48,683 nucleotides of DNA from IMG/VR virus record IMGVR_UViG_3300050821_002724, positions 1 to 48,683 of that record; one strand, written 5' to 3'. The position numbers and the translations under genes are program-made. This stretch comes from a virus. Under the pieces are notes generated by a model, which was not told the DNA's origin, ran no database searches, and saw nothing but the letters and a program-made list of their open reading frames with translations. The number at the start of each line of letters is the position of its first letter. Within the stretch, counting starts at the first letter, position 1. Below, in pieces: positions 262 to 47,828 of the stretch.

Positions 262-279
262 CTTACCCACAAGAGTAAC
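262..279. repeat. Dispersed palindrome, copy 1
   Basis: CTTACCC-ACAA-GAGTAAC; after the first gene, before the terminator. Confidence 0.8.
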
Positions 280-310
280 CTCGCGTCCCTCCCCAGTGAC
301 GCGGGGCTTG

Positions 311-360
311 GCGGCGGTAGAGTTGGGCGTTCAACCCGCTAACTCTTCCGCCGCTTTTTT
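311..360 (+). terminator. Rho-independent terminator
   Basis: A long GC-rich stem (arms about 311-329 and 337-354, with two mismatches) closes a short loop and is followed directly by six T residues at 355-360. It ends the transcript of the truncated first gene and separates it from the early gene block. Confidence 0.85.
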
Positions 361-438
361 GTGACCACAACTATCAACAACGCGCATGCTCTAATGACAC
401 TCTAACAAACGTATGCGCCCCTTCATAGCGGCCCCATA

Positions 439-457
439 TCTACTTGCCGCAAGTAGA
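439..457. promoter_or_regulatory. Perfect 19-bp palindrome, operator-like
   Basis: TCTACTTGC-c-GCAAGTAGA: nine-base perfect arms around one base. It lies between a terminator and the first early gene, four bases before a copy of the dispersed palindrome. Symmetry, length and position fit a repressor operator. I saw no second copy in the window. No protein is assigned to it. Confidence 0.55.
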
Positions 458-460
458 CAA

Positions 461-478
461 GTCACTCAACAGAGTAAC
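461..478. repeat. Dispersed palindrome, copy 2
   Basis: GTCACTC-AACA-GAGTAAC; in the leader, not next to a start codon, so not a ribosome site. Confidence 0.85.
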
Positions 479-646: not shown

Positions 647-664
647 CTAACCCACGAGAGTACC
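647..664. repeat. Dispersed palindrome, copy 3
   Basis: CTAACCC-ACGA-GAGTACC; just before ATG 666. Confidence 0.75.
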
Positions 665-1065: not shown

Positions 1066-1286
1066 CGAAGAAGGACTACACCGCGCTGGCGTTGGCGCTC
1101 AAGGCTGCAATGCCAAGGTACGCTGGCGACAAGGATCACGCGCACTATGCGCAGCACTGCGACGAGTATGGGCAATGGTGCCGCGACGTGAACGCTGTGC
1201 TTGTGGTGTGCGCCAAGGACAACCCGGCATTCAGCAAGGGTAGGTTCATTGCCGCCTGCGGCGTGCCGAACATCTTGGATAAGTAA
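1062..1286 (+). CDS. Hypothetical protein, possibly helical
   Basis: 74 codons; the start at ATG 1062 is chosen because it overlaps the previous stop as ATGA. A longer reading from 1032 would run deep into the previous gene. The protein (MTKKDYTALALALKAAMPR at the start, CRDVNAVLVVCAKDNPAFSKGRF later) looks all-helical. Proteins of the pattern 'F....YIA...A.....N..F....F...C' are frequent in phages without a known role. The gene is followed by a palindrome copy. Confidence 0.7.
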   Translation: MTKKDYTALALALKAAMPRYAGDKDHAHYAQHCDEYGQWCRDVNAVLVVCAKDNPAFSKGRFIAACGVPNILDK

Positions 1287-1300
1287 CTCACCGGAGTAAC
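1283..1300. repeat. Dispersed palindrome, copy 4
   Basis: GTAACTC-ACCG-GAGTAAC; holds the stop of the gene at 1062 and the ribosome site of the gene at 1304. Confidence 0.85.
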
Positions 1301-1825: not shown

Positions 1826-1843
1826 ATTACCCAAGGGAGTAAC
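1826..1843. repeat. Dispersed palindrome, copy 5
   Basis: ATTACCC-AAGG-GAGTAAC; before ATG 1850, downstream of a tandem-TTGACA promoter. Confidence 0.85.
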
Positions 1844-2203: not shown

Positions 2204-2221
2204 CTAACCCACGAGAGTAAC
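2204..2221. repeat. Dispersed palindrome, copy 6
   Basis: CTAACCC-ACGA-GAGTAAC; before ATG 2228 of the ATPase gene. Confidence 0.85.
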
Positions 2222-2227: not shown

Positions 2228-3343
2228 ATGAAGCTTAATCAACTGGAAGCGCGCTTGCCTGCGATGTACTACGCTGCATTGGAGGATGGCGGGCCATCGT
2301 ATCTAGTGCGCAGCCGCCCCGGCAGGGGTAAGACTAGCATATTTAGGCGCTACAAAAAGATCATGAAGCGCGTGGACCCCGCTGGCAAGTGGGGCTTTGC
2401 CTTGATCAACGGCGCTAACTTCACTTTGATGACCGGCATGGGATTTATGGTCCCGAGCAAGGACGCCAAGGGGCGTGAGGTGAGCAAGTTCCAACTGCCC
2501 TATTGGTATCACGACTACGATGAACCCGAGAAGACTCTGGACGAGTACACGGGCGGCATCCTGCTCATAGACGAGTATGACAAGCTGGGGCTGGACGAGA
2601 AGAAGATCGTTGGCGAGGCGGCGCTGAGCAAGATGTTGGGCAACCATCGCCTGCCACCCGGCTGGGTTGTGATGTTCGCTGGCAACTTGATGACCGATAG
2701 GTCTGGGTCCACGCGTGACTTGGATCACATGGTCATGCGGCGGATTACGTTGGACGTGACCGATGACGTGGAATGCACGGTCGAGTACTACCGTTCGATC
2801 AATGTGCTGCCGGAAGTCATCCAGTTCGCGGAAGAGAACCCGCAGTTATTGTTCGAACCGCAGCCCGAAGACCAGCGTCCCTGCTGCTCGCCGCGCACCC
2901 TGCATCAGACGGACATACACTTGAGATCGCTGATGAGCGTGTTCGACACCACTGAGATCCCGACCGATCCGCTCACTCAGGAGGAGATCAGCGGCGGTAT
3001 TGGCAAACCAGCCTGTGCGCAACTGGTCAAGACGATCCGCTTGGGTCAAGAGCTGAAGCCGTACGAGGAGTACATCGCCAACCCGAGGACGGTTACTCTG
3101 CCGAGTAAGCCCGATGCGCAACGGCTCTTGTCGTATAAGATCGCGGCGCGGGTGAGCGTGAAGGACGCCAAGGCGGCGCTGGAGTTTATGACCCGCATGC
3201 CGGAAGAGCATCAGGTTATGTTTGTCCGCATGGCCATCCAACGCAACTATCAACTGGCGTTCGAACCGCACGTGGCCGAGTGGTGCGCTAAGAAGACGGC
3301 GCTGATCGCGGTGCTTAATCGCTACAAGGTCGAGGATAAGTGA
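2228..3343 (+). CDS. MoxR-type AAA+ ATPase
   Basis: 371 residues. The P-loop is at residues 31-37 (PGRGKTS), Walker B at 111-118 (ILLIDEYD) and a sensor-1 Asn at 153 (MFAGNLMTDRSG); the small helical lid follows. This is the layout of MoxR/dynein-like AAA+ proteins, which act as ATP-driven chaperones, usually with a von Willebrand A partner. Such a partner is encoded three genes downstream (3932). A palindrome copy precedes the start ATG, and another lies inside the gene at 3092 (encoding VTLPSK). The stop overlaps the next start (GTGA). Family assignment is firm at the AAA+ level, moderate at the MoxR level; the client in infected cells is unknown. Confidence 0.85.
   Translation: MKLNQLEARLPAMYYAALEDGGPSYLVRSRPGRGKTSIFRRYKKIMKRVDPAGKWGFALINGANFTLMTGMGFMVPSKDAKGREVSKFQLPYWYHDYDEPEKTLDEYTGGILLIDEYDKLGLDEKKIVGEAALSKMLGNHRLPPGWVVMFAGNLMTDRSGSTRDLDHMVMRRITLDVTDDVECTVEYYRSINVLPEVIQFAEENPQLLFEPQPEDQRPCCSPRTLHQTDIHLRSLMSVFDTTEIPTDPLTQEEISGGIGKPACAQLVKTIRLGQELKPYEEYIANPRTVTLPSKPDAQRLLSYKIAARVSVKDAKAALEFMTRMPEEHQVMFVRMAIQRNYQLAFEPHVAEWCAKKTALIAVLNRYKVEDK
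3092..3109. repeat. Dispersed palindrome, copy 7 (intragenic)
   Basis: GTTACTC-TGCC-GAGTAAG; inside the ATPase gene, read as VTLPSK. Confidence 0.85.
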
Positions 3344-3720
3344 GCACCCTATCGCGGCGCATCCCCAAGCACTTGCTGCCCATCGACACCGTGCCAAAGC
3401 TATTCGAGATCAAGCACCGTTCGATGAGGCTGCGGCGCATTGCGCTGGAAGTCACACTATCCGAAACCCTTAGCTCCATACGAGGTGATACTATGCGATG
3501 CGTATTCGAGACAAGACTGAGCGTGGACATCGACGTGAACGATGACGCGCTGAAGAAAGCGTTTATCGACATGGTGACGCAGACGGCGCGCAACATGTAC
3601 GGCCCGACCGTGATGCTGGCGAAGAACGCGCCCACGATCAGCGTGAGCATGGCCTCGCGCAACGGCAAGGTGGACATCCCATTGTTCGAAACGGTTACTC
3701 AAGAGAGTGACGATGACTAA
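3340..3720 (+). CDS. Hypothetical protein in the ATPase/VWA operon
   Basis: 126 residues from GTG 3340, which overlaps the previous stop. An internal ATG at 3493 has a better ribosome site (GAGG seven to eight bases upstream) and would give a 75-residue product. The C-terminal part (CVFETRLSVDIDVND, then ALKKAFIDMVTQTARNMYG) looks like strand plus helix; the N-terminal 50 residues are basic. The family is not recognised. Its position between ATPase and VWA protein suggests it belongs to the same complex, which is inference only. It ends with the palindrome copy 3694-3711, read as VTQES. Confidence 0.6.
   Translation: MSTLSRRIPKHLLPIDTVPKLFEIKHRSMRLRRIALEVTLSETLSSIRGDTMRCVFETRLSVDIDVNDDALKKAFIDMVTQTARNMYGPTVMLAKNAPTISVSMASRNGKVDIPLFETVTQESDDD
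3694..3711. repeat. Dispersed palindrome, copy 8
   Basis: GTTACTC-AAGA-GAGTGAC; read as VTQESD at the end of one gene and ribosome site for the next (ATG 3713). Confidence 0.8.
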
Positions 3721-3916
3721 GCGCCGCCCAACTCGTCCCGAGTTCTTCCCCTGCTGGCTCAAGAACGAGCAAGCCGAGGTACGACGGTGCGGACGACGTG
3801 TCTACGGATACGACCGCCGCATGGTCCTCATCAAAGGTCCGCGCACATTCGAGCAAGCGTTCCGCGCCGCCCGCGCACTGGGGTTGAGCGGACGCTTGGA
3901 TATCTTCTGCACCTAA
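3713..3916 (+). CDS. Small basic hypothetical protein
   Basis: 67 residues from ATG 3713, inside the last codons of the previous gene; the palindrome copy there supplies the ribosome site. It is rich in Arg and has three Cys (FFPCWLKN, RRCGRR, IFCT). The helix FEQAFRAARALGL precedes the end. It does not match anything I know. It lies between the ATPase/accessory pair and the VWA gene, so it is probably co-transcribed with them. Confidence 0.6.
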   Translation: MTKRRPTRPEFFPCWLKNEQAEVRRCGRRVYGYDRRMVLIKGPRTFEQAFRAARALGLSGRLDIFCT

Positions 3917-3930
3917 CCCAAGAGAGTAAC
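3913..3930. repeat. Dispersed palindrome, copy 9
   Basis: CTAACCC-AAGA-GAGTAAC; stop of the previous gene and ribosome site for ATG 3932. Confidence 0.85.
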
Positions 3931-3931: not shown

Positions 3932-5335
3932 ATGCCCCTCGTTCAAACCGACATCAAATCGCCGGTCGCTGGCGACAGCGGCAAGTGGAAGAAGCTGAGC
4001 CTCGACGCCATCCGCAATCAGCTATGGGCCGAAACCAAGGCTGGCATGCTGTGGGCTGTCCCCTCCTATGCCGACATCTGGTTGGCGATGATGGTGGACC
4101 GCGACGGCGAGCAAGCTTGGTTCACCGACCAAGTGGAGACTGCCGCCACCGACGATAAGTTCCTCTACATCAACATGGATTGGTTCTTCAAGCTCACTCT
4201 CGATGAGAGACTGTTCGTCGCCTGCCACGAGATCGCGCACGCCATGTATGGCCATGCCGGTCTGTTCTACATGCTTCAGAAGGCCGAGGAGATCCGTTAC
4301 TCAGATGGGTTAGTCCTGCCAGCCAACGGCGAGCTTCTTAATATCGCTGCCGACTACGTGATCAACGATCAATTGGTTCAGGCCAAGATCGGCAAGATGC
4401 CTGATGGCGGACTGCACTGGCCGCAACTGATCAACGGCGACATGGGCGTGCTCGACGCTTACCGGCTGCTGTACAAAATCAACAAGAGCCGAGGCCGCAA
4501 GCCCGGTGACAAGCGAGGTGAGCAAGAGAGCGATCAACCGGGCGGCGGTAAGCCAGTGGACGATGCGTGCAAGCGCACCACCAAGGCTGGCACAACACAA
4601 GGCGAGGGCAGCGGTAAAGCGTTCGACAAAGTCTTAAAGCCGGGCGACGGTTCCGGCAAGAAGCCCAACAAGGCGATGAGCGAGCGCTCGCAAGCCGAGT
4701 GGGATACGACAGTCAACGCGGCGATGGAGAGCGCCAAGCTTCAGGGCAGATTGCCCGCCAACCTTGAGCGGCTCTTTGTGAAACGCTTGCAACCCAAGGC
4801 AGACTGGCGCGATCTGTATCGGCTGGCGGTGAGCCGCAAGATCGGCAACGACAGGTACACATGGGATCGGCTGGAGCCGCAACTGATCTATCGCGGCATT
4901 GGCGCACCGGGGCGGACATCGTTTGGGTGCAACCTGATCGTCATCGTGGTGGATACTTCTGGATCGATTGACGAGAACACGTTCGCCGTGTTCATGGCTG
5001 AGACGACGGCGCTGCTGGAGCAAGCCAAGCCGAGGAACCTCGTGTTTGTCCAGTGCGATACCGATATCCAAGAGTGGACTGAGATGGATGGGGTGAGCGA
5101 TCTCTACCAGTGCAAGCTCAAGCGCGGCGGCGGCACCAGTTTCCTTGAGCCGTTCAAGCGGGTGGAGAAGGAGGGGCTGACGCCCGACCTGCTGGTGTAT
5201 CTCACCGATCTGTATGGCGACTTCCCCAGCACGTCCCCGAAGTACCCGGTGCTGTGGGGAGCGACCACCGATGCACCCGCGCCGTGGGGTGAGATCGTTC
5301 GCATCCCGCCGCAAGTCGGTAACTCAGGAGAGTAA
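3932..5335 (+). CDS. DUF2201-like metallopeptidase-VWA protein, partner of the ATPase
   Basis: 467 residues. The N-terminal part carries a HExxH zinc motif, HEIAH at 99-103, in a helical domain. A low-complexity Gly/Lys linker covers about 186-250. The C-terminal VWA domain has the MIDAS motif DTSGS at 341-345, and later FVQCDTDIQEW, GGGTSF and YLTDLYGDFP. This order matches the DUF2201 family (metallopeptidase-like plus VWA-like domain), usually found beside MoxR ATPases. Whether it cleaves protein is open, as some family members are thought to be non-catalytic. The start ATG 3932 follows a palindrome copy; another is inside the gene (4296-4313). Its stop TAA lies in the right arm of the next copy. 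Confidence 0.85.
   Translation: MPLVQTDIKSPVAGDSGKWKKLSLDAIRNQLWAETKAGMLWAVPSYADIWLAMMVDRDGEQAWFTDQVETAATDDKFLYINMDWFFKLTLDERLFVACHEIAHAMYGHAGLFYMLQKAEEIRYSDGLVLPANGELLNIAADYVINDQLVQAKIGKMPDGGLHWPQLINGDMGVLDAYRLLYKINKSRGRKPGDKRGEQESDQPGGGKPVDDACKRTTKAGTTQGEGSGKAFDKVLKPGDGSGKKPNKAMSERSQAEWDTTVNAAMESAKLQGRLPANLERLFVKRLQPKADWRDLYRLAVSRKIGNDRYTWDRLEPQLIYRGIGAPGRTSFGCNLIVIVVDTSGSIDENTFAVFMAETTALLEQAKPRNLVFVQCDTDIQEWTEMDGVSDLYQCKLKRGGGTSFLEPFKRVEKEGLTPDLLVYLTDLYGDFPSTSPKYPVLWGATTDAPAPWGEIVRIPPQVGNSGE
4296..4313. repeat. Dispersed palindrome, copy 10 (intragenic)
   Basis: GTTACTC-AGAT-GGGTTAG; inside the VWA gene, read as RYSDGLV (third codon phase). Confidence 0.7.
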
Positions 5336-5336
5336 G
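5319..5336. repeat. Dispersed palindrome, copy 11
   Basis: GTAACTC-AGGA-GAGTAAG; the VWA stop codon TAA is in the right arm; ribosome site for GTG 5337. Confidence 0.85.
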
Positions 5337-5501
5337 GTGAAGGATATCATTGTCTCGTTCGTAGAGGATAACACTAAGACGGTTGTTGTCGGTATCCTAG
5401 CTACAGTCGCTTTCCTGTTCATGTGGATACACTGGGACAGCGATTACAATTGCAATAAGCTACCGACTACGGTCGGCGTGCTTGCTTGTCATCTCAGCTA
5501 A
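5337..5501 (+). CDS. Small single-pass membrane protein
   Basis: 54 residues from GTG 5337, immediately after a palindrome copy containing AGGAG. One hydrophobic helix at about 16-31 (TVVVGILATVAFLFMWI) follows a charged N-terminus; the rest is short with two Cys. Probably an inner membrane peptide. Placement among early genes argues against a holin, and the real lysis genes appear to lie at 22.7-23.4 kb. Function unknown. Confidence 0.65.
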   Translation: MKDIIVSFVEDNTKTVVVGILATVAFLFMWIHWDSDYNCNKLPTTVGVLACHLS

Positions 5502-5515
5502 CTCAGGAGAGTAAG
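5498..5515. repeat. Dispersed palindrome, copy 12
   Basis: CTAACTC-AGGA-GAGTAAG; stop in the left arm; ribosome site for GTG 5516. Confidence 0.85.
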
Positions 5516-5719: not shown

Positions 5720-6380
5720 ACGGGTGTTCCGTAAGCCAGACCGGATACAGATCGTGGCCGACATGGTGCGCGGCTCGACCTCGACCCGCCGCAAGGCGTT
5801 CGATAAGCTGCATGCCGGATGGGGCAAGGCGGCGTTTCTGGAGGGTGTTACTCTGGAGAGGAACAAGGCGTTGGCGATCTGGTCATACCTTAAGCCGCGC
5901 AACTCCGTGTTCGTCCAAGCTAGCGACAACGTGACCGACACCGAGCGCGCCTCGTTGGCGCAGGACTGCGTGTGCGTGAATTACATCGTTGCTGGCACGC
6001 ATCGTTGCGAGTTGGCCGATGGGTTGTGGACGCTGGAGGTGCCAGACCACGCGCTTGGGCGGGCGGTGGAGCGCAGCCAGTTTCTCACTCCCGAAGCGAT
6101 CATCCGTGAGGCGCACATAAACCTGTTGGCCCTGCCGGTAGAGCGGATGAACGATATCCACTACATCAAGGCTGGGCCGGGATGCTTTGCTGGCGCGCTG
6201 ATGGTCGCTAGAGAAGTGACCTACGTCGTCTCTGCTCACGTTCGCGTGAACACATGGCTGGCAAGTGAGATGATGGGCGACAACCAGCAACCGATACTGG
6301 AGGTGGGTGAACCCGGCAAGAGGCTAGGCGACACAGTGCTGCTGCCGCGTCCCCTGTGGTCGGATCGGAGGGAGCCATGA
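5598..6380 (+). CDS. Hypothetical protein, 260 aa
   Basis: Start ATG 5598 is chosen because AAGGAG lies ten bases upstream; an in-frame ATG at 5535 has no ribosome site. The protein has a basic helical N-terminal third (DRIQIVADMVRG, STRRKAFDKLHAGWGKA) and a mixed C-terminal half with several Cys and His. No known motif. One intragenic palindrome copy (5847-5864) is read as VTLERN. The stop overlaps the next start (ATGA). Its role among replication-early genes is unknown. Confidence 0.7.
   Translation: MDDQPMKSWPAKTTITYGDAETRGKLRHWKRRLGEHYDAFERVFRKPDRIQIVADMVRGSTSTRRKAFDKLHAGWGKAAFLEGVTLERNKALAIWSYLKPRNSVFVQASDNVTDTERASLAQDCVCVNYIVAGTHRCELADGLWTLEVPDHALGRAVERSQFLTPEAIIREAHINLLALPVERMNDIHYIKAGPGCFAGALMVAREVTYVVSAHVRVNTWLASEMMGDNQQPILEVGEPGKRLGDTVLLPRPLWSDRREP
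5847..5864. repeat. Dispersed palindrome, copy 13 (intragenic)
   Basis: GTTACTC-TGGA-GAGGAAC; read as VTLERN. Confidence 0.7.
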
Positions 6381-6580
6381 CGCTAGAACAAAAGATCGAA
6401 GCGCTTAAGGCGTTGCGTGGTAAACACGATCAGACTATGCGCACCGAAGCGATCAAGATCGAGCATGGCGTCAAGATGATCAAGGGCATGACGCCAACGG
6501 CGCGCGACCTTGAGGTGCGGATCAAGCGCCTTGAAGACGACCTTCACTGTGCGCGCATGGATGCGTTTACCGACGACTAA
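6377..6580 (+). CDS. Small coiled-coil protein
   Basis: 67 residues from ATG 6377 (ATGA overlap with the previous stop). Charged heptad-like sequence (LEQKIEALKALRGKHDQ, LEVRIKRLEDDLHCAR) predicts a helical hairpin or coiled coil. No enzymatic motif. The gene ends in a palindrome copy that serves as ribosome site for the next gene. Confidence 0.7.
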   Translation: MTLEQKIEALKALRGKHDQTMRTEAIKIEHGVKMIKGMTPTARDLEVRIKRLEDDLHCARMDAFTDD

Positions 6581-6594
6581 CTCAGGAGAGTAAG
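6577..6594. repeat. Dispersed palindrome, copy 14
   Basis: CTAACTC-AGGA-GAGTAAG; ribosome site for ATG 6595. Confidence 0.85.
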
Positions 6595-6937: not shown

Positions 6938-6955
6938 CTAACCCAAGAGAGTAAC
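6938..6955. repeat. Dispersed palindrome, copy 15
   Basis: CTAACCC-AAGA-GAGTAAC; ribosome site for ATG 6956. Its TAA here is not a stop of any gene. Confidence 0.85.
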
Positions 6956-7789
6956 ATGCATGCCGCCCTGATTGCCTTCATCGACAAGAAACTGAGCGAG
7001 GCCGCAGACTTCGTTCTTCGTCACATGCCGGTTGCCCTATCGACCGACGAAATTTATGAGAACTTGGTGGGTGAGCCGCATGTAGTGGCGGCGTTCAAAG
7101 AGGCAGGCAAGTACCTGCCGCCATCGTCGCTCAACCGCCGCATTAACTTAGGCATCCATACGCCATATCCACCGTTTGAAATTAAACTGTTGGTGTCGTT
7201 GCGGCTGGACCCGACTGAAAAGTATCCCGTTCTTCTATTACCGAAGTACGACCTCGATGTTACTCACGAGAGTGCGCTGGGGCAAGCGCTAACAATGTCG
7301 ATTAACGTCGCGCGCGAATGGGAGATGCTAACCCAGACATGGGAGAAATTTAAGGGCGCAGTGCCTGACCCACATGTGCTGGGGTTCCTGTTCCCGTGGC
7401 TGCGCGAGATCATGCTGAACTTTGACCTTGAGTTGCTGGATGTCGGCATCAGGCGCAAGCAGGAGCGCGAGCAGATCGAGCGCGAGGTGCGAGCGATCCA
7501 GAGGCGTATGCCGCCCAAGAGCTTTCCGCGCCTGAGCATCGAGTTGAACCGGGTGTGCCAATCCGGCAAACGCCTGTTCGGACAATATCGGATGCTGGAA
7601 GCGGCGGCAACGAGTATCGAGCGCGCCCCGCTGAGCATCAACCGGGCGACCAACCTAGCCCCGGCATGGTTGGACGAGCATATTGGAGAGTGCATCTCCG
7701 ATTGGTTTGAGGAGAAGGTGGCGATCACGTGGACAGACGACAGCGATATGACCGGCAAGCGGCGGCGCAAACTCTTTGGAGTAAGGTAA
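6956..7789 (+). CDS. Hypothetical protein, 277 aa
   Basis: ATG 6956 follows a palindrome copy (6938-6955). The protein is mixed: an N-terminal helical region, a segment PPFEIKLLVSLRLDP of beta character, and a long charged helix around residues 165-185 (RRKQEREQIEREVRAIQRR) that could be a coiled coil. The C-terminus is basic (MTGKRRRKLFG). No family recognised. An intragenic palindrome copy (7259-7276) reads VTHES. The stop TAA shares its last base with the next ATG (TAATG), so it is coupled to the helix-turn-helix gene and may act with it. Confidence 0.7.
   Translation: MHAALIAFIDKKLSEAADFVLRHMPVALSTDEIYENLVGEPHVVAAFKEAGKYLPPSSLNRRINLGIHTPYPPFEIKLLVSLRLDPTEKYPVLLLPKYDLDVTHESALGQALTMSINVAREWEMLTQTWEKFKGAVPDPHVLGFLFPWLREIMLNFDLELLDVGIRRKQEREQIEREVRAIQRRMPPKSFPRLSIELNRVCQSGKRLFGQYRMLEAAATSIERAPLSINRATNLAPAWLDEHIGECISDWFEEKVAITWTDDSDMTGKRRRKLFGVR
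7259..7276. repeat. Dispersed palindrome, copy 16 (intragenic)
   Basis: GTTACTC-ACGA-GAGTGCG; read as VTHESA. Confidence 0.7.
7768..7785. repeat. Dispersed palindrome, copy 17 (degenerate)
   Basis: CAAACTC-TTTG-GAGTAAG; before ATG 7789 of the helix-turn-helix gene. Confidence 0.55.
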
Positions 7790-8121
7790 TGGCAGGCTTC
7801 ACTTACAAGAGCTATAGCTTTGTCGATAAAGACCCGATCATTGACGAAATCAGGGGCGTCGTTAGTGCGAGCGGCGCTAGCTACAAGTGGATCGAAGAGC
7901 ATTCCGGTGTCACTCAGATGACGCTTTACAATTGGTTTGGCGGCAAGACCAAGAAGCCACAGGCTGCAACTATCAACGCGGTTGCGAGGGCGCTGGGCTA
8001 CAAGCTTGGGTTCGTGCCGAATGGTGAGGCGGTTAAGTTCGTGCCGCCGATGCCCCTGCCGATCAAGACCTCTGTTCGGCATGTGGTGCAGATGAGCAAG
8101 TACAAGCGGAGAGCGAAGTAA
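7789..8121 (+). CDS. XRE-type helix-turn-helix DNA-binding protein
   Basis: 110 residues from ATG 7789. Residues about 15-68 (IIDEIRGVVSASGASYKWIE, then SGVTQMTLYNWFGG and ATINAVARALGYKLGF) match the helix pattern of Cro/CI/XRE domains, with the recognition helix near TQMTLYNW. The C-terminal part is short and basic. Phage proteins of this kind repress early promoters. It is a candidate binder of the 19-bp palindrome at 439 or of the dispersed 18-bp palindrome; both ideas are inference. It overlaps the preceding gene by one base. Confidence 0.75.
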   Translation: MAGFTYKSYSFVDKDPIIDEIRGVVSASGASYKWIEEHSGVTQMTLYNWFGGKTKKPQAATINAVARALGYKLGFVPNGEAVKFVPPMPLPIKTSVRHVVQMSKYKRRAK

Positions 8122-8135
8122 CTCAGGAGAGTAAG
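8118..8135. repeat. Dispersed palindrome, copy 18
   Basis: GTAACTC-AGGA-GAGTAAG; stop of the helix-turn-helix gene and ribosome site for ATG 8137. Confidence 0.85.
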
Positions 8136-9176: not shown

Positions 9177-9463
9177 AAAAACGTAAGCACCACGAAACTT
9201 GCCCTTCGTGCGCGTTCGTCCATGCGCACCGGCTCAAGTACGGTAAGAACAAGTATAGCCAGAAGGCGTTCAACGATATGGTGCATGCCGCCGTGAAGAT
9301 CAGCGCCATCATCATGGCTAAGCTGGATAACGAAGGTAAGGCGCAGTACCTCGCCAACGTGGTGCGGACAACCGCCGAGCTTGAGGGTGTAGAGATCGGC
9401 GTCGAGGTGATCAATGGATCGACTGGCGAGCCGTCCGTCGCCAAGGGGCCGACCAAGCACTAA
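9173..9463 (+). CDS. Hypothetical protein with CxxC
   Basis: 96 residues from ATG 9173. The N-terminus has a CPSC pair with flanking His (KKRKHHETCPSCAFVHAHR), then helices (FNDMVHAAVKISAIIMAKL). A half zinc finger is possible. It is immediately upstream of the DNA polymerase gene, separated by a palindrome copy, so a role in DNA metabolism is conceivable but not shown. Confidence 0.7.
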   Translation: MKKRKHHETCPSCAFVHAHRLKYGKNKYSQKAFNDMVHAAVKISAIIMAKLDNEGKAQYLANVVRTTAELEGVEIGVEVINGSTGEPSVAKGPTKH

Positions 9464-9477
9464 CTCAGGAGAGTAAG
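9460..9477. repeat. Dispersed palindrome, copy 19
   Basis: CTAACTC-AGGA-GAGTAAG; ribosome site of the DNA polymerase gene. Confidence 0.85.
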
Positions 9478-11454: not shown

Positions 11455-11769
11455 ATGTTAAATTTCGTCACCGAGGAACCGGACATCAGTGTCCCTTGCG
11501 ACGAGAAGACGCTCACACACGTCTTCTCGCTGGGGCCGCTGGAAGCCAAGTTCCTACAAGCGATGCTGTCCACCAGAGGCTGGGTGGGCAAGGAAGAACT
11601 ACCCGAGGTGCGCGCCTCGATCCGGCAGATGATCTATAAGCTGCGCGCCAAGCTGGAGCCGCGCAAGGTGTGGGTGATCAACAATGGCCGTGGACGCTAC
11701 AGTATTCCTCCAAGCTCTAAACACGTCGCTAAAGCGCTTATCGAAGCCGGGCTTAACTCAGGAGAGTAA
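11455..11769 (+). CDS. Winged-helix transcription regulator
   Basis: 104 residues from ATG 11455. From about residue 22 the sequence follows the OmpR/PhoB-type winged helix: SLGPLEAKFLQAMLSTRGW, then SIRQMIYKLRAKLEP (recognition helix) and VWVINNGRGRYSIPP (wing). There is no receiver domain, so it is a stand-alone DNA-binding protein, possibly the regulator of middle or late genes or of its own promoter. It sits directly downstream of a tandem-TTGACA element. It is another candidate binder of the dispersed palindrome. It ends in a copy of that palindrome. Confidence 0.75.
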   Translation: MLNFVTEEPDISVPCDEKTLTHVFSLGPLEAKFLQAMLSTRGWVGKEELPEVRASIRQMIYKLRAKLEPRKVWVINNGRGRYSIPPSSKHVAKALIEAGLNSGE

Positions 11770-11770
11770 G
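11753..11770. repeat. Dispersed palindrome, copy 22
   Basis: TTAACTC-AGGA-GAGTAAG; end of the winged-helix gene, ribosome site for GTG 11771. Confidence 0.8.
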
Positions 11771-12186: not shown

Positions 12187-12204
12187 CTTACTCATGAGGG
12201 TAAC
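12187..12204. repeat. Dispersed palindrome, copy 23
   Basis: CTTACTC-ATGA-GGGTAAC; ribosome site for ATG 12205. Confidence 0.85.
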
Positions 12205-15444: not shown

Positions 15445-15445
15445 G
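15428..15445. repeat. Dispersed palindrome, copy 27
   Basis: ATAACTC-TCTT-GAGTAAG; covers the helicase stop and the start region of the next gene. Confidence 0.8.
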
Positions 15446-15733: not shown

Positions 15734-16237
15734 ATGACGTTTGATCTAGGCACCCGCGTCAAACAAGTGCGGGCTATCGAAGCAAAGATAAAGACGAGGG
15801 AGGCCGAGCTTGAGGCTGAGCTTAAAGCTGCTAAGGATTGGGCGGTGGCGGCGCGGGTGGAAATCCTTGAGTTCCTGAACGCCACCAAGCAGAAGAGCGC
15901 CAACACCGAGTTCGGCACCGCCTACTGGAAGCCGAAGGTTACCTACCGGGTCGAGGACAAGGACGAGTTCCGGCGTCATGTGATCGGCATGGAGCAGTGG
16001 GAGCTTGTGACGTGGGGCGCGGCGGGCAATGCTGCCGAGGTGTTCACCAACGAGCATGGCGAGCCGCCACCGGGATGCGTGCGCAATAGCGTGAACATCC
16101 TCTACATCAACCCGCCTGCCAAGCCACGCACCAAGGTGGCGAAAGCCAGCACCGGCAATGGTGCGGAACCGCCTGACGACGACGCTCTTGCGGAGGACTT
16201 AGGCGTGCCAGCCGGGGCAGAGGCTGGTCAAGACTAA
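15734..16237 (+). CDS. Hypothetical protein, possibly Gp157-like
   Basis: 167 residues from ATG 15734 with AAGGAG upstream. A charged N-terminal coiled coil (EAKIKTREAELEAELKAA) leads into a strand region (TEFGTAYWKPKVTYRVEDKD). This resembles siphovirus Gp157-like proteins by architecture only. The C-terminal tail is acidic and disordered. It directly precedes a possible ssDNA-binding protein and the primase, so a replication accessory role is plausible. Confidence 0.6.
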   Translation: MTFDLGTRVKQVRAIEAKIKTREAELEAELKAAKDWAVAARVEILEFLNATKQKSANTEFGTAYWKPKVTYRVEDKDEFRRHVIGMEQWELVTWGAAGNAAEVFTNEHGEPPPGCVRNSVNILYINPPAKPRTKVAKASTGNGAEPPDDDALAEDLGVPAGAEAGQD

Positions 16238-31944: not shown

Positions 31945-31962
31945 GTTACTCACGCGGGTAAG
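31945..31962. repeat. Dispersed palindrome, copy 45
   Basis: GTTACTC-ACGC-GGGTAAG; before the start (minus strand) of the polyvalent gene. Confidence 0.85.
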
Positions 31963-31966
31963 CCTC

Positions 31967-37895: not shown

Positions 37896-37913
37896 GTTAC
37901 TCTCGTGGGTTAG
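37896..37913. repeat. Dispersed palindrome, copy 48
   Basis: GTTACTC-TCGT-GGGTTAG; between the 494-aa gene stop and the transglycosylase start (minus strand). Confidence 0.85.
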
Positions 37914-39398: not shown

Positions 39399-39416
39399 GT
39401 TACTCACTTGGGTAAT
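39399..39416. repeat. Dispersed palindrome, copy 49
   Basis: GTTACTC-ACTT-GGGTAAT; before the start (minus strand) of the 494-aa gene. Confidence 0.85.
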
Positions 39417-40271: not shown

Positions 40272-42565
40272 TATGCCGCCTTCAGTTCTTTTACACTGGA
40301 TGCACACTTAAAGAACCGCATGCCGATCTGACCCTCGAATTGGAACTCCCATAGCTCGGCTTTAAAGTCGCCCGGTATCAGCAACACCTCGCCCGACTTC
40401 TGGATTTCCCGCACCACAATGGGGTTGCCATCTGCGTAGACCCGCACAATCAAGTACTGAGTGGTGGGGTCGAAGGTCTGCCCTTGGTCGGTGTTCCGCG
40501 CTCCCAACGTGATCGTGACCTCGGGCGGCACCTCAAACAACACCATGAACGCCTTGAATAGCTGCGGCGCGGTGAAGCGGAACATCTTAGTTTTCCACTG
40601 CCAGCTACGCAGCGTCGTCGCTCCCGACACGCTCTGCGGCGGGTTCCACTGCATCACCGCCCCGCCCCCTATCAAGACAAAAAGCTGCCCCGATAACTCA
40701 TCAGAGTAACAATTAATGATTTCGGTCTCAGGCGGGACAGGCCGCAAATAGGTGAACGGCACGTTCGGCACCGAGTTGTCCAGCACGAACCCCAGATACC
40801 CCAACCCATCAGGGCTAGGGATGGGTGAGCTTTTGATAAAACTGGCGTAGCTCGATCCGTACTTGCCCGCCGCCCACTGCGGCGGCAGCAACGAGTAGTG
40901 AAACTCTTTCTCGAAAATGCCGATGGTGACGTTCTCGGTGCCGCCTGTGTTCAGAAGCTGGATGCCATTGGGCGAAGCATAGTACGCGCCCTCGCCCGCG
41001 CTCACGATGGAGCCGCGCGAAATGCACGGCTCGTTAGCGGTGATCTTCCCTATCGTCATAGTGTCGGGCGTCACACCCGTGGCGATAAAGGGCGATCCTT
41101 CGGTCATCACGTTGAGCGAGGTGCCATTGGCTGTCAGTCCGACGATGGGATAGTCCACTGTCAACGCGTACTGAGGAGGCCACGCATGCGGCAAGTACGC
41201 AGCGCTGAACCACACCTCGCGCTCATTGGTGTACCCGGCAGCGATGCCGTTGGCCATCATCACCACGCCCTGCAATCCAGCGGGGGGAGGGGCAAAGCCA
41301 ATAGTGCTGAGAATGAGGTTGCCGGTGATAGACGCATCGCTAGCGTTATCAGTAATGGTCACCGGGCCAACCGGATTAATCGGCACCTCGGTGACTTGAA
41401 AGTAAGTGGCGTTGCCAGACGCGTCGGTGACCGTACGATACAACCTATAATGGCCGGGGTTCATCGCCCGCCCGGTGTTATAGCCGGGCGGCGGGATGGG
41501 GATAACGATCACCCACGTCCCATTGCCGTCGCCCGACGCCACCGTCGCGGGCGAGGGTTGCCCCTCCTCGGCAAAGTCGTTAACATAAGTGTAGACGTAA
41601 GCGCGCGTCTCAGGCAGGGCGGTGAGAAATTGGATCGTGTCGCCAGCTTGCACGCCACCAGCAATCACGGCGTTGCTGATGGTCACCTGCCCAGCAGCCA
41701 TGTTGATGGTCGATACTGTCGCGCCATTCACAATCTGATTAGCGTTGTCGAACTGGAATGTGTCGCCCGCGACCACGTTGCCAATCAGCGCAACGCTGAT
41801 CGTCACCGCTGTAGGGCTGACAACCGCAACCTTCGTACCGGGGAACACCACTGCCGGATTAGAAGTGCATATGCACGTCATGCCCGAGACAATGTTGTTT
41901 GGCGCACTGCCAGTGCTAGAAAATGTCAGCACTGTTGAACCAAGCGCAGACGCAACCGTCACCGCCGCCGTCAACCGATGGTCGGTCAGGTCAATGACGT
42001 TCATACCGATAGTGACAGCGCCCAGTGAGTTAGCAGCGAACTGTAGCAGCGAAGACCCTACGGCGGTAGCGCCAGTGGTGACCAGCACGATTGAAGACGA
42101 TGGCGGGGTGACGGTCGGCGGCGTACCGGGCGCAGGGATGCCAAGAATGTAGTTGGGCGCAGGCGGATCGAGTTGCAGGTTCGCCAACGTGTTGTACACC
42201 GGCCCCGGCGAGGTAACAGGCCACGACGGATTGGTTCCGTCTGCGTCATATTGATCGCTAGGGAAGAAGTAATAGCGGTTGAAAGTATCACCCACCGTTG
42301 GGTTGCGAATGGTGGTCATGAATGGATCAGGATACTCCAACCACAACGAACCAGTAGAAGTAAAGTCGGGCGGGTTGTCAGTGTTCAACGGTATTCGGTA
42401 AACCTGTTGGGTGTCATCATAAATCGCGTCGTACACCGCATTAGCAGCGCGAAACCCGCGTATCTGCCCCCGGTACAGCCACGCGTTGTTCGCCAACTGC
42501 GCGTTGTTATCCGGCAGGAGAAGCGGGTCACGGATTGGCAGCATGCCGCTGAAGTCGGCTACCAT
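40271..42565 (-). CDS. Tail nozzle/stabilisation-like protein
   Basis: 764 residues from ATG 42565; only a distant GGAG (about 20 bases) is upstream, so initiation may depend on the preceding gene. Strand-rich throughout. The opening VADFSGMLPIRDPLLLPDNN, then AWLYRGQIRGF, is like that of podovirus tail proteins that bind after the head-tail connector (T7 gp12 or P22 gp10 analogues). Repeated Thr/Val-rich strands in the middle (about 150-300) suggest a beta-barrel or Ig-like insertion. Role inferred from position between inner-core and fibre genes. Palindrome copy at 40693 (YSDEL). Confidence 0.6.
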   Translation of the reverse strand: MVADFSGMLPIRDPLLLPDNNAQLANNAWLYRGQIRGFRAANAVYDAIYDDTQQVYRIPLNTDNPPDFTSTGSLWLEYPDPFMTTIRNPTVGDTFNRYYFFPSDQYDADGTNPSWPVTSPGPVYNTLANLQLDPPAPNYILGIPAPGTPPTVTPPSSSIVLVTTGATAVGSSLLQFAANSLGAVTIGMNVIDLTDHRLTAAVTVASALGSTVLTFSSTGSAPNNIVSGMTCICTSNPAVVFPGTKVAVVSPTAVTISVALIGNVVAGDTFQFDNANQIVNGATVSTINMAAGQVTISNAVIAGGVQAGDTIQFLTALPETRAYVYTYVNDFAEEGQPSPATVASGDGNGTWVIVIPIPPPGYNTGRAMNPGHYRLYRTVTDASGNATYFQVTEVPINPVGPVTITDNASDASITGNLILSTIGFAPPPAGLQGVVMMANGIAAGYTNEREVWFSAAYLPHAWPPQYALTVDYPIVGLTANGTSLNVMTEGSPFIATGVTPDTMTIGKITANEPCISRGSIVSAGEGAYYASPNGIQLLNTGGTENVTIGIFEKEFHYSLLPPQWAAGKYGSSYASFIKSSPIPSPDGLGYLGFVLDNSVPNVPFTYLRPVPPETEIINCYSDELSGQLFVLIGGGAVMQWNPPQSVSGATTLRSWQWKTKMFRFTAPQLFKAFMVLFEVPPEVTITLGARNTDQGQTFDPTTQYLIVRVYADGNPIVVREIQKSGEVLLIPGDFKAELWEFQFEGQIGMRFFKCASSVKELKAA
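40693..40710. repeat. Dispersed palindrome, copy 51 (intragenic)
   Basis: ATAACTC-ATCA-GAGTAAC; nozzle-like gene, read as CYSDEL (third codon phase). Confidence 0.75.
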
Positions 42566-42582: not shown

Positions 42583-42966
42583 TTACTCCTTCTCGTTACC
42601 CTCTTGAGTAACCTTGTTGCGGCGAGAGATCATCTTAGCTCCATAGTCATGCTCGGCTTGAGTGCGCTTGGCATACACCGATAGCGCCTCCTTGCCTGCC
42701 TCCATCTCCAATTCGGTCGCCTCGTTAACGATCTCGTCGCTCACATCGAGAGGAGGGGCCATGTTGGGTTTAGGCGGAATGCCGTGGATGTTCATCCGCA
42801 TCGAAGGCGGCGACTCGGGCGGCACAGTCTCCGCAGCAACATGCGCCCCAGTGAGAGGTTCGCTGGGAGGAGCGCCGTGCAGCGGGTTAGGTCTTGCGGC
42901 TGGGCGCGGGGCCGCCGCCTGACTTGATGATGGTGGCCTTACGGGCGGGTTCGGGGAGGTCGCCAT
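42583..42966 (-). CDS. Hypothetical structural-region protein
   Basis: 127 residues from ATG 42966 (AGGAG upstream). The N-terminal half is Pro/Ala-rich; the C-terminal half is helical and charged (DEIVNEATELEMEAGKEALS, AEHDYGAKMISRRNK). It overlaps the preceding gene by 80 bases in another frame. Ends in a palindrome copy read as VTQEGN. Possibly an assembly factor. Not recognised. Confidence 0.6.
   Translation of the reverse strand: MATSPNPPVRPPSSSQAAAPRPAARPNPLHGAPPSEPLTGAHVAAETVPPESPPSMRMNIHGIPPKPNMAPPLDVSDEIVNEATELEMEAGKEALSVYAKRTQAEHDYGAKMISRRNKVTQEGNEKE
42595..42612. repeat. Dispersed palindrome, copy 52
   Basis: GTTACCC-TCTT-GAGTAAC; last codons of the gene at 42583, read as VTQEGN. 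Confidence 0.85.
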
Positions 42967-44270: not shown

Positions 44271-44273
44271 CAG

Positions 44274-45845
44274 CTAAATCTCCGCGCTTGCAGTCCATTG
44301 AAGACCAAACTGCACCTGACTAGACGCTATTGTCTGAGTGGCAAGCCAATTAAAGTTATTAGTCAATGTATCGCGCGTCCCTCCAGTTACGTCCACACCA
44401 TTCGCTATGTCACGTATCATACCGGAAGCCCCCGTAGCCGTCGAGTATGTCACGATTGTTGGCGTTGCGCGTTTGGTTACTTTAAAAAAAGCAGTACTAC
44501 CGCCCCAATTTATCGTAGTAGCCAATCCAGTTGTCATAAGGTATGAATTTGGACTAATGTTTGTTGTCCCCGGCACAACTCCAGCAGGATAACCAGTCTC
44601 AAAATACCTCTGGCAGCGCGCCAGTTTGCGCGCTAAATCATCTGGCACGAACGGCGTGGCGACACTGCCCGCCTCCAGCTTGAGACCAGTGATCGCCCAA
44701 TTCGCGCCGTTGGTTGCGGTAACGTGAACCGCGCCAGCCGCCGCAAAAGCCGCCGTCGTCTGCCAAGCATTGAGAGTCGGGGTTTGGTTAGTCGAGCCGC
44801 TACCGAAATCGAAAACGACAATCATCCCAATATTGTTGCCAGCATTCGGCCAAGCAAGCGCGTTAACCGCCACGTCGCCCGGAATGGTAATGGTGATCTT
44901 GGTCCAAGTGTTCGCTGTCGGCAGAGAATAAGTCGTGGCGTAAACGCGATAATTCGCACCGCCTGAGGTGGTCGCTGCGCCGCTCATAATGGTGAAGCTA
45001 AAATTACCGGTCAGACTAGAACGCGCCCAAAACGACACAGTAAATGGCTGCGCACTCGCCGTTCCCTGACCAAGATCGCCGATGAAGTCAGCTTCGATAT
45101 CATGCTGCATTTGTAGGACGGCCCCAGCCACCGATGTGTAAGCCGAGGTCGATTGCACGCCGAGGAAATAGGGAAATCCCGGCGCTTTGGTCGTAATGGC
45201 GGCGAGATTTTGCCCAATGGTAAACCGGGAAGTCGCTACAGAATTGTAAGACGCGAAGCGATCAGGGCACCATTGACCAGCGGTCGTAACGGCGACGCTC
45301 GCCCCAACATTGTGCTGGTCTACCCACATGTCTCCATTATCTATGCGGTTAGGATTGTTAGGCGAAACCCCGGTCGCCCCCTGCGGCCCCGTTGCCCCCT
45401 GCGGCCCTGCCGCCCCTGCCGGTCCTTGCGGTCCAACCACATTGACCGCCACCACCCACTGGGAACTATTGCCGTCGTTAAACCAGACGTAGAGATTTCC
45501 GCCTACGCTGTCCCACCACAGCGTACCCGGTTGCGGATTGGAGGGAGCCGTATCGCCAACGCCAACCGAACCACCGATCTGCGCCCAGTTAGCAGGATTG
45601 AACGCACCGGGAGCGTTTGCCGCCACACAGCGGTAAAGCTGACCTGCTTGAATGACGAACTGCCCAATCGCGTAGTTCGCCGCATTTGAATAGAACGTGA
45701 TCCCGATCAGGTCTTGCGCCGCATTGGTCGCGTTGACCACGCCCATCTGTAAGTCAGCAAAGTTGACATACAGTTCCCCCGGCTGCTTGCCGGTAGGCCG
45801 GTTGCCAGAAACGCTGGAGCGAAGCGATTGTACCCTTCCGGTCAT
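44274..45845 (-). CDS. Tail fibre with collagen-like hinge
   Basis: 523 residues from ATG 45845. N-terminal part RPTGKQPGELYVNFADLQ and YRCVAANAPGAFNPANW are of fibre/base type. Residues about 137-159 are a collagen-like Gly-X-Y run (GPQGPAGAAGPQGATGPQGA). After it, NRIDNGDMWVDQHNVGASV begins a domain paralogous to the whole of the next fibre, and the end is also TASAEI. Trimer formation is likely, since collagen-like hinges trimerise. Likely the main host-range protein. Its stop TAG is three bases before the next ATG. Confidence 0.8.
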   Translation of the reverse strand: MTGRVQSLRSSVSGNRPTGKQPGELYVNFADLQMGVVNATNAAQDLIGITFYSNAANYAIGQFVIQAGQLYRCVAANAPGAFNPANWAQIGGSVGVGDTAPSNPQPGTLWWDSVGGNLYVWFNDGNSSQWVVAVNVVGPQGPAGAAGPQGATGPQGATGVSPNNPNRIDNGDMWVDQHNVGASVAVTTAGQWCPDRFASYNSVATSRFTIGQNLAAITTKAPGFPYFLGVQSTSAYTSVAGAVLQMQHDIEADFIGDLGQGTASAQPFTVSFWARSSLTGNFSFTIMSGAATTSGGANYRVYATTYSLPTANTWTKITITIPGDVAVNALAWPNAGNNIGMIVVFDFGSGSTNQTPTLNAWQTTAAFAAAGAVHVTATNGANWAITGLKLEAGSVATPFVPDDLARKLARCQRYFETGYPAGVVPGTTNISPNSYLMTTGLATTINWGGSTAFFKVTKRATPTIVTYSTATGASGMIRDIANGVDVTGGTRDTLTNNFNWLATQTIASSQVQFGLQWTASAEI

Positions 45846-45860
45846 GGCTATATAGCCCTT

Positions 45861-47828
45861 CTAAAACGTGCCACAGTCAATATTGGCGTTGGCTACACTA
45901 CTCGTAACATACTGCATCGGCACCGCGTCGAGCGGGTTGATCGGATTACCCACGAGAGTAAGTATGCCGGTCATCGTCCCGCCCGTCAGCGCCACTCGCG
46001 TAGTGTCGGTCGGATGCACGTGATCGCCGCGCGTGAACGCAGGCGATGACCCAGATGACCCTACACTGTCCATCGCAGGCACAGCGTTCGACGCCACCGG
46101 CACGTTAGCGATTAACGCGTAAGACGTGAGCGCGTTAGCAACTTGCGCCGCCGTCTGATAGCCCGAAGGATTGCTCGCCGCGTAACGCGAAGTGTCGCTC
46201 GGATGAACGTGGTCAGCGCGGGCGAAGGTTGTACCTGTACCAACCGCCGCTGTACCGTCCATACTTGGCGGCGTCGTTGAAGCCGCAGGAGAAGGCGGGA
46301 TGTTGGCGGTTAGCGCGTAGGGTGCGAGCGTAGTATCCAGATCAGTAATGTCAGCCGAGATCAAATGCACCCACGTCGCATCATTGCGCGAGTAGGTGGT
46401 GCCATCACTCGGCGCATCAGCAATGCCACCGCCACTGGCGGTTGGCACCCATGTGTTGTTCTGTCGCGCGTAGGCAGTGCCATTTGCCGGTGCGTCAGGA
46501 ATAGGCGCAGCCCCCCAACTAAACGTATTCGATGCGTTGGCAACAAGAATTTGCCCCGGCTGACCGCCACTGATCTGAAGAGTTGCTGGGCCATTAGCCA
46601 AAATCAAACCGGGTGCGCCAATCGCTCCAGTGAAATTGCCGCCACGCAACGGCATGTAGAGCGACAACGCCGTCACTACGTTGGCAGCGCTCTGGTAGTT
46701 CGCCGGATTACTCGCTGGGTAAGCTGCCGCCCACAACCCATTCTGACGACCATACAACGTGCCATCGGTCGGCGCGTCCTGAAGCCCCTGTCCGGTCAGC
46801 GGCAACCATGCATTGTTGTTGCGAGCATAAAACTGCCCATCGTTCGGTGCGTCAGCTTGGATCGGCGTCACCAACCAATTGCTGTTGCTACGTGAGTAAA
46901 GCAGGCCGGTCATCGGTGCGTCAGGAATAATTACGTTCTGCCGCACCCACACACCATTGTTACGCGCATAGGTGTTACCATCCACTGGCGCGTCAACTTG
47001 GATCGCGTCAGCCTGCCACGTGCCGTTGTAACGCCCGAACCGAACGCCGCCCCCCGGCGCTTCCGTGATATATTGAGGAAGCGCGTACCAGTTGTTATTC
47101 CGACGCGTGTACATCACGCCATCAGCGGGCGCGTCAGCCTGAATGGGGACGGTCACCCAAAAACCATTGTAGCGCCCATAGAGGATGCTGTCTTCTGGCG
47201 CTTCGATCACAAGGTTGGTCGAGGCAACCACCTCCCAGCCGAAAATGACGCCATCAGTCACCCACTCAGATAGCGTCTCAGTGTCGGTGTTGAACCACTG
47301 ATCCATCACATTCGGATTGCTCGGCGGCGCGGCTCCCCAGAAGTACCGCACCCCAGAGTTCACGTAGCCCTGCGTCGGCTCGCCCAGCGGCAACTGAGTA
47401 TACAACGCCGGAACGGGGTTGATCGTTTCGCAAGCGCAGTCGGCAGAAGAAGGGATTTGGATCGACAGCCAATCGGTCCAATCCACACCGCTGGAAGTCA
47501 CACTGATCCCAAGCGTGTACATCTGCCCAGCGATGCCGCCCGAAACCAGAAAGATCAATTGCGAGCCAAGCGAAGAAAGCTCTCCTGCTGCTCCCGATTG
47601 AAGGAGTTGCGCGTAGCTGACCACCAGCGCCGGATTGCTGGTTACATCAACCGAAAACGAGAACCCATCTACCGTCGTCGTCGGTTCGATTTGGCTATAG
47701 TCGATGACCACCAGCGTCTGCTCGGTCAACTGTTTGACGTGGGTAACCAAAGATGACCCGGTGTTGACCGAGACATAGTAATACGCACTGTCGGTGTTGA
47801 CGACGCCGGAAGGAAGCGCGTAACCCAT
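45861..47828 (-). CDS. Repeat-containing tail fibre protein, 655 aa
   Basis: Start ATG 47828, one base after the preceding stop. The N-terminal 190 residues resemble the next tail protein (IDYSQ, GGIAG, CxC, PNVMDQWF). Residues about 205-350 and 440-510 hold nine copies of a 16-residue motif (D/E)AP-DG--Y-R-N--W, spaced about 25 residues apart. Later there are two DHVHP-DT-R motifs, typical of fibre shafts. The overall plan is adaptor domain, repeat shaft, tip. Exact role (fibre or shaft) is inferred. Palindrome copy at 45945 (LTLVGN). Confidence 0.75.
   Translation of the reverse strand: MGYALPSGVVNTDSAYYYVSVNTGSSLVTHVKQLTEQTLVVIDYSQIEPTTTVDGFSFSVDVTSNPALVVSYAQLLQSGAAGELSSLGSQLIFLVSGGIAGQMYTLGISVTSSGVDWTDWLSIQIPSSADCACETINPVPALYTQLPLGEPTQGYVNSGVRYFWGAAPPSNPNVMDQWFNTDTETLSEWVTDGVIFGWEVVASTNLVIEAPEDSILYGRYNGFWVTVPIQADAPADGVMYTRRNNNWYALPQYITEAPGGGVRFGRYNGTWQADAIQVDAPVDGNTYARNNGVWVRQNVIIPDAPMTGLLYSRSNSNWLVTPIQADAPNDGQFYARNNNAWLPLTGQGLQDAPTDGTLYGRQNGLWAAAYPASNPANYQSAANVVTALSLYMPLRGGNFTGAIGAPGLILANGPATLQISGGQPGQILVANASNTFSWGAAPIPDAPANGTAYARQNNTWVPTASGGGIADAPSDGTTYSRNDATWVHLISADITDLDTTLAPYALTANIPPSPAASTTPPSMDGTAAVGTGTTFARADHVHPSDTSRYAASNPSGYQTAAQVANALTSYALIANVPVASNAVPAMDSVGSSGSSPAFTRGDHVHPTDTTRVALTGGTMTGILTLVGNPINPLDAVPMQYVTSSVANANIDCGTF
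45945..45962. repeat. Dispersed palindrome, copy 53 (intragenic)
   Basis: ATTACCC-ACGA-GAGTAAG; fibre gene, read as LTLVGN; the last copy seen on the right side. Confidence 0.85.

Follow-up and report, generated by a model that had tools for sequence, protein, structure and literature searches.

A two-fold symmetric DNA site dispersed through the genomes of podovirus-like phages, with a possible role as the operator of one phage-encoded silencer

The DNA examined here, referred to as the window, is the 48,683-base record of a bacterial virus (IMG/VR record IMGVR_UViG_3300050821_002724), in which an early and replication block on the plus strand extends to about 20.5 kb and is followed by a small cargo region and then by a structural block on the minus strand, beginning at about 24.9 kb. 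The window resembles podovirus-like phages, and the closest named isolate found was the cultured Rhizobium phage RHph_TM3_14A (MN988472). Dispersed over the whole of this genome is a short palindromic element, sTTACyC-N4-GrGTAAs, of which no published description was found in the literature searched, which covered few subscription journals. It is certain or nearly so that the copies are specific DNA sites of two-fold symmetry maintained by selection.

When up to three mismatches to sTTACyC-N4-GrGTAAs were allowed, the window gave 65 matches against 10.1 ± 3.2 in dinucleotide shuffles. A palindromic position weight matrix (PWM), built from the sites themselves and used with a site threshold of at least 10 bits, recovered 50 sites of the form TTACyC-N4-GrGTAA against 0.45-0.6 in Markov shuffles, so that the 53 copies counted by eye in the original prediction were essentially right. 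Synonymous-codon shuffling provided a further control, in which the 27 sites lying wholly inside genes compared with a mean of 2.1 and a maximum of 6 in 60 trials, and the same treatment of the relatives G007 and G008 gave 34 against 2.6 and 37 against 3.5, respectively. Therefore, codon usage and ribosome sites both fail as explanations, and the enrichment first proposed on inspection outlasts dinucleotide, Markov and codon-matched controls, among them the comparison named in that proposal as able to overturn it. The 50 sites are given below with coordinates, description and PWM score; the strand is "." throughout, and "G008+" marks sites retained in G008.

262..279, palindromic site CTTACCCACAAGAGTAAC, directly 3' of the early gene ending at 257; 23.4
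461..478, palindromic site, outside called genes; 21.9
647..664, start-associated site, 1 nt before gene 666; 19.4
1283..1300, start-associated site, contains the upstream gene's stop; 23.3
1826..1843, start-associated site; 20.9
2204..2221, start-associated site of gene 2228-3343; 24.4
3092..3109, intragenic site; 22.2; G008+
3694..3711, intragenic site; 23.4; G008+
3913..3930, start-associated site; 22.8; G008+
4296..4313, intragenic site; 20.4; G008+
5319..5336, gene-junction site with stop codon; 25.0
5498..5515, gene-junction site CTAACTCAGGAGAGTAAG; 24.8
5847..5864, intragenic site; 20.1; G008+
6577..6594, junction site with stop, Shine-Dalgarno and start; 24.8
6938..6955, start-associated site; 22.8
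7259..7276, intragenic site; 19.8; G008+
7768..7785, weak site before the helix-turn-helix gene at 7789; 13.5
8118..8135, stop and start junction site; 25.0
9460..9477, stop and start junction site before the DNA polymerase; 24.8
10110..10127, within the DNA polymerase gene; 21.7; G008+
10681..10698, within the DNA polymerase gene; 24.5; G008+
11753..11770, at the 3' end of the winged-helix gene; 20.3; G008+
12187..12204, start-associated site; 23.4
12973..12990, within the RecB-like exonuclease gene; 22.7; G008+
14757..14774, within the SNF2 helicase gene; 22.2; G008+
15428..15445, over the helicase gene stop; 23.1; G008+
16234..16251, gene-junction site with stop codon; 24.4; G008+
16896..16913, intragenic site; 22.4; G008+
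17881..17898, weak site within a gene, perhaps noise; 13.6; not retained in G008
18241..18258, intragenic site; 21.5
20748..20765, near the end of the replication block; 21.0
20998..21015, start-associated site; 24.3; G008+
21956..21973, weak site in the PEP-CTERM-type cargo gene; 14.7
22698..22715, gene-junction site; 24.6
23726..23743, start-associated site, minus-strand gene; 24.1
24632..24649, stop and start junction site, minus-strand genes; 25.3
25716..25733, weak intragenic site; 15.8
26979..26996, within the 2342-aa gene; 20.0
28149..28166, within the 2342-aa gene; 22.5; G008+
28871..28888, within the 2342-aa gene; 18.7
29996..30013, within the 2342-aa gene; 19.3; G008+
30743..30760, within the 2342-aa gene; 24.8; G008+
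31945..31962, start-associated site of the 2342-aa gene (minus strand); 23.3
34103..34120, within the 1974-aa gene; 22.0
36452..36469, within the 1974-aa gene; 22.8
37896..37913, stop and start junction site, minus-strand genes; 24.4; G008+
39399..39416, start-associated site, minus-strand gene; 23.2; G008+
40693..40710, within the internal virion protein gene; 20.8; G008+
42595..42612, within the small gene upstream of the internal virion protein gene; 24.8; G008+
45945..45962, within a tail-related gene; 24.3; G008+

As had been proposed, the sites occur in early, replication, structural and cargo regions, with a higher density early: 1.46 per kb in the early and replication half versus 0.59 per kb in the structural half, which holds 14 of them. 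An early-half density about twofold or more higher was found in seven of the eight genomes tabulated (the window, G007, G008, RHph_TM3_14A, the Bradyrhizobium phage (BRA), G003 and G006), the bias being slight in G012, and G003 and the Bradyrhizobium contig have hardly any sites in the late half. Sites follow one another at an average of about 1 kb, in genes and at junctions alike, and the spacing is more even than random in the window (coefficient of variation (CV) of the gaps 0.70, p about 0.03), as also in G007 (0.70), G008 and RHph_TM3_14A (0.61 each), G009, G012 and G015; maximum gaps are small in G008, G007 and RHph_TM3_14A. With a single-spacer matrix, evenness beyond random was not seen in G003, G013, G014 and G018.

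Additionally, a start codon follows within 35 nt of 18 of the 50 window sites, against 1.8 expected, and the distance is 1-7 nt for nearly all of these 18. Positions 2-4 of the left arm spell TAA in 41 of 76 start-associated sites, and in the window, at 6577, 8118 and 9460, this TAA is the stop codon of the upstream gene. The spacer and right arm of such sites provide the Shine-Dalgarno sequence, so that CTAACTCAGGAGAGTAAG-ATG makes up a whole gene junction. Intragenic sites fall in phase 0 of the reading frame in 17 of 26 cases, and the V/L-T-x-x-S/G residues of the proteins concerned probably reflect, in part, the DNA site.

The constrained positions are T2, T/A/C3, A4, C5, Y6 and C7 with their mirror images, whereas the outer C/G and a central A..T are weak. 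Within the half-site TTACyC, T3 is often A (or C), Y6 is T or C, and the outer base is C or G. The spacer measures 4 in 41 of 44 strict half-site pairs of the window, 3 and 5 being rare. A search for exact palindromes hardly detects the motif here, because the arms degenerate independently and few sites have perfect ones. In the TTACTC group (76 start-associated and 138 intragenic sites), the frequency of complementary arm pairs equals the product of the column frequencies; among the start-associated sites, A stands opposite A at pair 3/16 in 43 of 76 and a perfect 7-bp stem occurs in 0 of 76. Since the arms vary independently, a two-fold symmetric protein (a dimer) on duplex DNA fits and a conserved RNA hairpin is ruled out: a structured hairpin was rejected because no compensatory pairing links the arms. 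A third half-site, suggested by direct repeats of the half-site at 12-13 bp, was likewise discarded, as nearly all such repeats arise from the right arm plus CyC and their number matches expectation (by estimate).

Comparison with relatives demonstrated that the sites are held by selection. Counting only sites with alignable flanks, 19 of 20 intragenic sites of the window are retained in G008, whose flanks are 75% identical, and 19 of 22 are retained between G007 and G008. In the former comparison, the constrained positions are 0.92 identical versus 0.75 in the flanks, and 19 of the 20 sites exceed their own flanks. Scanning of related phages, as the original prediction had proposed, revealed the same layout in every relative with enough sequence, each lineage carrying its own version of the motif. 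The variants, with the records that carry them, are TTACTC-N4 (the window, G001, G002, G007, G008, G013, G014), TTACCC-N3 (G009, G010, G012, L163-L165), TTACTC-N3 (G015, G017), TCACTC-N3 (G011), TAACTC-N3 (G018), TCACTA-N4 (G021), TAACTGG-N2 (G016) and a GTTACC/T type (G003, G004, G005, G006). Spacers of 3, 4 and 5 are all present in G013 and G014, and spacer 3 dominates in G009, G010, G011, G012, G015 and G018. RHph_TM3_14A carries 59 GTTACCT sites with a spacer of 3 or 4, a mean gap of 996 bp and a maximum of 2.9 kb. This change of motif by lineage with a constant layout implies a co-evolving binder encoded by the phage itself, and a phage-encoded binder of diverging specificity is thus strongly inferred from the sequence comparisons.

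The record G002 represents the window's species over their overlap (100% protein identity in nearly all genes) and extends it leftward, where noncoding DNA before the early genes holds three consensus copies at exact 21-bp intervals and a fourth copy, beside an AT-rich stretch. The AT-rich noncoding region next to these three sites (L106 6600-7000) could be an origin or an early control region. Another site of G002 lies near promoter-like sequences, and at L106 7777-7806 a perfect match to a sigma-70-type promoter, TTGACA-N18-TATAAT, stands about 23 bp from a motif site. Tandem triplets were not found in the other lineages. Farther afield, no comparable motif and neither of the two leading candidate binders described below was found in the stretches examined of Pseudomonas phage KPP25 and Agrobacterium phage Atu_ph08. 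Other palindromes occur at more distant loci, namely GTTAGCC-N4-GGCTAAC in L030, L013, L014 and L063, which belong to distant phages with a related DNA polymerase and, in the stretches examined, neither candidate binder, and a terminator-like one in L083. A Candidimonas prophage-like locus (L173) has 7 copies of GTTAccATCatGATggTAAC against 0.2 expected, and the early protein family described below is not in that genome.

A scan of bacterial genomes with the capsid protein identified relatives in two Bradyrhizobium isolates, Rp7b and 139 (loci L181-L184 in G022:C42 and L189-L195 in G023:C166 and C111). In Rp7b, the related phage lies on a 60,568-base contig that bears 47 copies of the motif and a pair of integrase-like genes, of which one scores above and the other below the Pfam cut-off. 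In strain 139, the phage genes reach the ends of two contigs whose other side carries chromosomal-looking genes, and a large serine recombinase adjoins one phage boundary, which is apparently the pattern that an integrated prophage would show if the assembly had divided it. The initial 26 kb of the phage contig of this strain hold 32 sites against 0. The strict motif TTACCYNNNNRGGTAA has 3 and 9 matches in these 8.7- and 7.9-Mb genomes, all on phage-bearing contigs, and none was found elsewhere in either genome.

As to the protein that would read the sites, the shared gene set was established by iterated profile searches with the G007 proteins against all relatives. Three genes of the window come into consideration:

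3..257, plus strand, 3' end of a gene of the early helical protein family (G007_045), the best candidate binder by presence, found in every motif-bearing relative whose early region is covered
11455..11769, plus strand, winged-helix protein, ranked second as candidate binder, found in the Bradyrhizobium relatives and 15 records, AlphaFold predicted local distance difference test (pLDDT) 80
7789..8121, plus strand, XRE-type helix-turn-helix protein with weak HTH_3/HTH_31 matches, a candidate of the original prediction, not universal

Among proteins with no evident enzymatic or structural function, the early family occurs in 16 records, which are all those with both the motif and a known early region; L163-L165 and the two Bradyrhizobium relatives have it as well. 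Its members share as little as about 20% identity, a divergence so strong that a single profile built from the full family was unusable, and the N terminus is acidic. In RHph_TM3_14A the early-family protein is EVB41_028 and the winged-helix protein EVB41_062. The early family is predicted to be helical with a mean pLDDT of 60 (low to moderate model confidence), and no PDB fold match and no Pfam or PHROG family was found for it. Its presence pattern makes it the leading candidate, although the assignment falls somewhat short of even odds. The 11455 model is a confident winged helix with AbfR2-, ArsR- and MarR-like neighbours, none with an E value below 0.001. The original prediction had named both 7789 and 11455 as candidate binders, and neither choice came through unharmed. 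The helix-turn-helix protein at 7789 is present in only nine records and missing from G013, G014, RHph_TM3_14A, G003 and G006, which share or resemble the motif. Although widely conserved, the winged-helix protein is missing from G006, a genome that retains 32 sites of the RHph type and is complete, as judged by its 117-bp exact terminal repeat; this absence weakens the case for 11455 as sole binder. The winged helix is a possible but doubtful binder, and some other protein is no less likely than it; the 039, 014 and 013 families, which are shared but have no function assigned, may also come into question.

Among the neighbouring genes, that at 21293-22075 in the cargo region encodes a PEP-CTERM-type secreted protein, with similar genes in some relatives. 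The minus-strand gene at 23774-24406 lies within a repetitive stretch and has homologues in G007, G008, G015 and G021, while the long open frames on its opposite strand are probably spurious. Two giant minus-strand genes (2342 and 1974 amino acids) occupy 24914-37891 and are common to much of the phage group.

Taken as a whole, the explanation that the sites are operators of one phage-encoded dimeric binder acting as a genome-wide silencer and roadblock is given a little less than an even chance. The idea of a multi-site binding system for one protein, already put forward in the original prediction, gains support from the selection on the sites and from the lineage-specific motif in a constant layout. 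Each TTACyC half-site would be read independently by one subunit of a sequence-specific, two-fold symmetric phage protein, with a normal separation of 4 bp and 3 or 5 tolerated; both dimer binding and the identity of the binder are inferred. Besides binding close to the early promoter region, the protein would occupy another 50-70 sites, most densely placed in the long early and replication operon but also present throughout the late genes, so that transcription beginning or reading through anywhere would be stopped. Junction sites would double as stop codon and Shine-Dalgarno sequence, and intragenic sites would fill the long stretches between distant junctions, for a density of roughly one per kilobase. 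The binder would act as an immunity repressor in integrated relatives, and in relatives with no detected recombinase it could serve early-gene shut-off. Silencing of both initiation and elongation is proposed with moderate confidence on four grounds: the weighting of sites toward the early operon, the copies that precede the early genes, the location of sites over the starts of genes, and the existence of apparent prophages.

Several observations weigh against the silencer explanation. A repressor of a known family common to all genomes was not found, promoter-like matches near the tandem sites hardly outnumber those in shuffles, and silencing of early genes does not obviously call for even spacing in the late half. 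Moreover, tyrosine or serine recombinase matches were 0 in 12 viral records and in RHph_TM3_14A; therefore lysogeny is not the general purpose and the system is not tied to integration. A further reading is less likely than not: a family-wide system of symmetric, regularly spaced, coding-embedded sites would be read by a new all-helical early family (G007_045), for which no relative among solved structures was detected, and this family would diversify its specificity so that every lineage has a genome-wide code of its own.

The strongest competing explanation is that the sites organise the genome physically, with a chromatin-like or segregation protein that would bridge or coat the DNA for compaction, nuclease shielding, positioning or packaging. 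It is unlikely overall, though it accounts for the more-even-than-random spacing in seven genomes and for the continuation of sites through structural genes and cargo, and the weak structural neighbours of 11455 include chromatin- or centromere-type winged helices (TrmBL2, AspA). However, the roughly doubled early-half density with its nearly bare late halves, the four genomes without even spacing and the failure to find a ParB_N domain (0 of 13 records) argue against it. Nucleoid-associated silencers are known to combine silencing with DNA organisation, and one protein could serve both here.

Improbable is the use of the sites as tags of self, by which a phage nuclease, packaging or replication factor would discriminate phage from non-phage DNA: the confinement of strict matches to the phage contigs of the two Bradyrhizobium genomes and the motif differences between lineages agree with it, but the bias to early genes and start codons is not predicted. 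To the same low degree, the binder could be a host protein exploited by the phages, with motif differences reflecting different hosts, a reading helped by the binder being as yet a candidate only; however, the two host chromosomes have no strict match outside the phage contigs and therefore fit poorly a host factor with sites of its own. Very improbable is an origin array of iterons for an initiator protein, which the three tandem copies beside AT-rich noncoding DNA in G002 recall, whereas more than 50 dispersed single sites per genome are unlike such an array and the triplet occurs only in G002. Least credible is a translation signal, with the palindrome acting as an RNA element at ribosome-binding sites, for although 18 of 50 window sites stand just before start codons, a subset often with a Shine-Dalgarno-like core and a stop codon, more than half are intragenic and the arms do not covary.

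These phages would constitute a second and apparently independent case, outside the actinobacteriophages, in which a whole phage genome is subject to a single protein with many binding sites; the site here is symmetric and, within essential genes, also limits the choice of amino acids. Since one group offers about ten code variants together with a growable isolate, RHph_TM3_14A, and Bradyrhizobium prophages, the co-evolution of protein specificity with about 60 sites becomes directly testable. The motif variants additionally allow viral contigs to be sorted into specificity groups.

Among known systems, Noc, ParB/parS and MatP are bacterial or plasmid systems in which dispersed short palindromes are recognised by dimers that organise the genome; the present sites share this dispersed palindromic form but lie in phage genomes. 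Operators of the lambda and P22 type, of which a genome has a handful, are about 17-18 bp long, imperfectly palindromic and variable at the centre, and they are bound by dimers; the likeness is in site form, while 50-70 copies per genome are found here.

The nearest known concepts are the two that the original prediction had singled out, stoperators and start-associated sequences, and this placement is borne out, the present symmetric site differing from both. The start-associated sequences (SAS) of cluster K mycobacteriophages are 13-bp asymmetric elements, GGGATAGGAGCCC, located virtually all a few bp before starts and in the non-structural half only, and the inverted repeats of the extended start-associated sequences (ESAS) differ between subclusters (PMC3203893). 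As with SAS, sites here stand a few nt before starts and overlap the ribosome-binding site and sometimes the upstream stop; unlike SAS, sequence and symmetry differ, only about a third of the sites are start-associated and 14 lie in the structural half. In cluster A mycobacteriophages (L5 clade), stoperators are asymmetric, oriented 13-mers found in promoters and short intergenic spaces and bound by a monomer (PMC9283540, PMC6550527). In L5, the repressor halts transcription at stoperators (PMC6550527, PMC9283540), and the stoperator motif changes in correlation with phage lineage (PMC6550527). Both systems have many short sites per genome, a lineage-specific consensus and sites in the promoter region and downstream. 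However, the present site is an 18-bp palindrome with equivalent arms and no orientation, 27 of the 50 window sites lie fully inside genes, and its carriers are podovirus-like phages related to a Rhizobium phage and to Bradyrhizobium prophages. Membership of the stoperator or SAS class thus fails on the features tested; a stoperator-like mode of working is possible.

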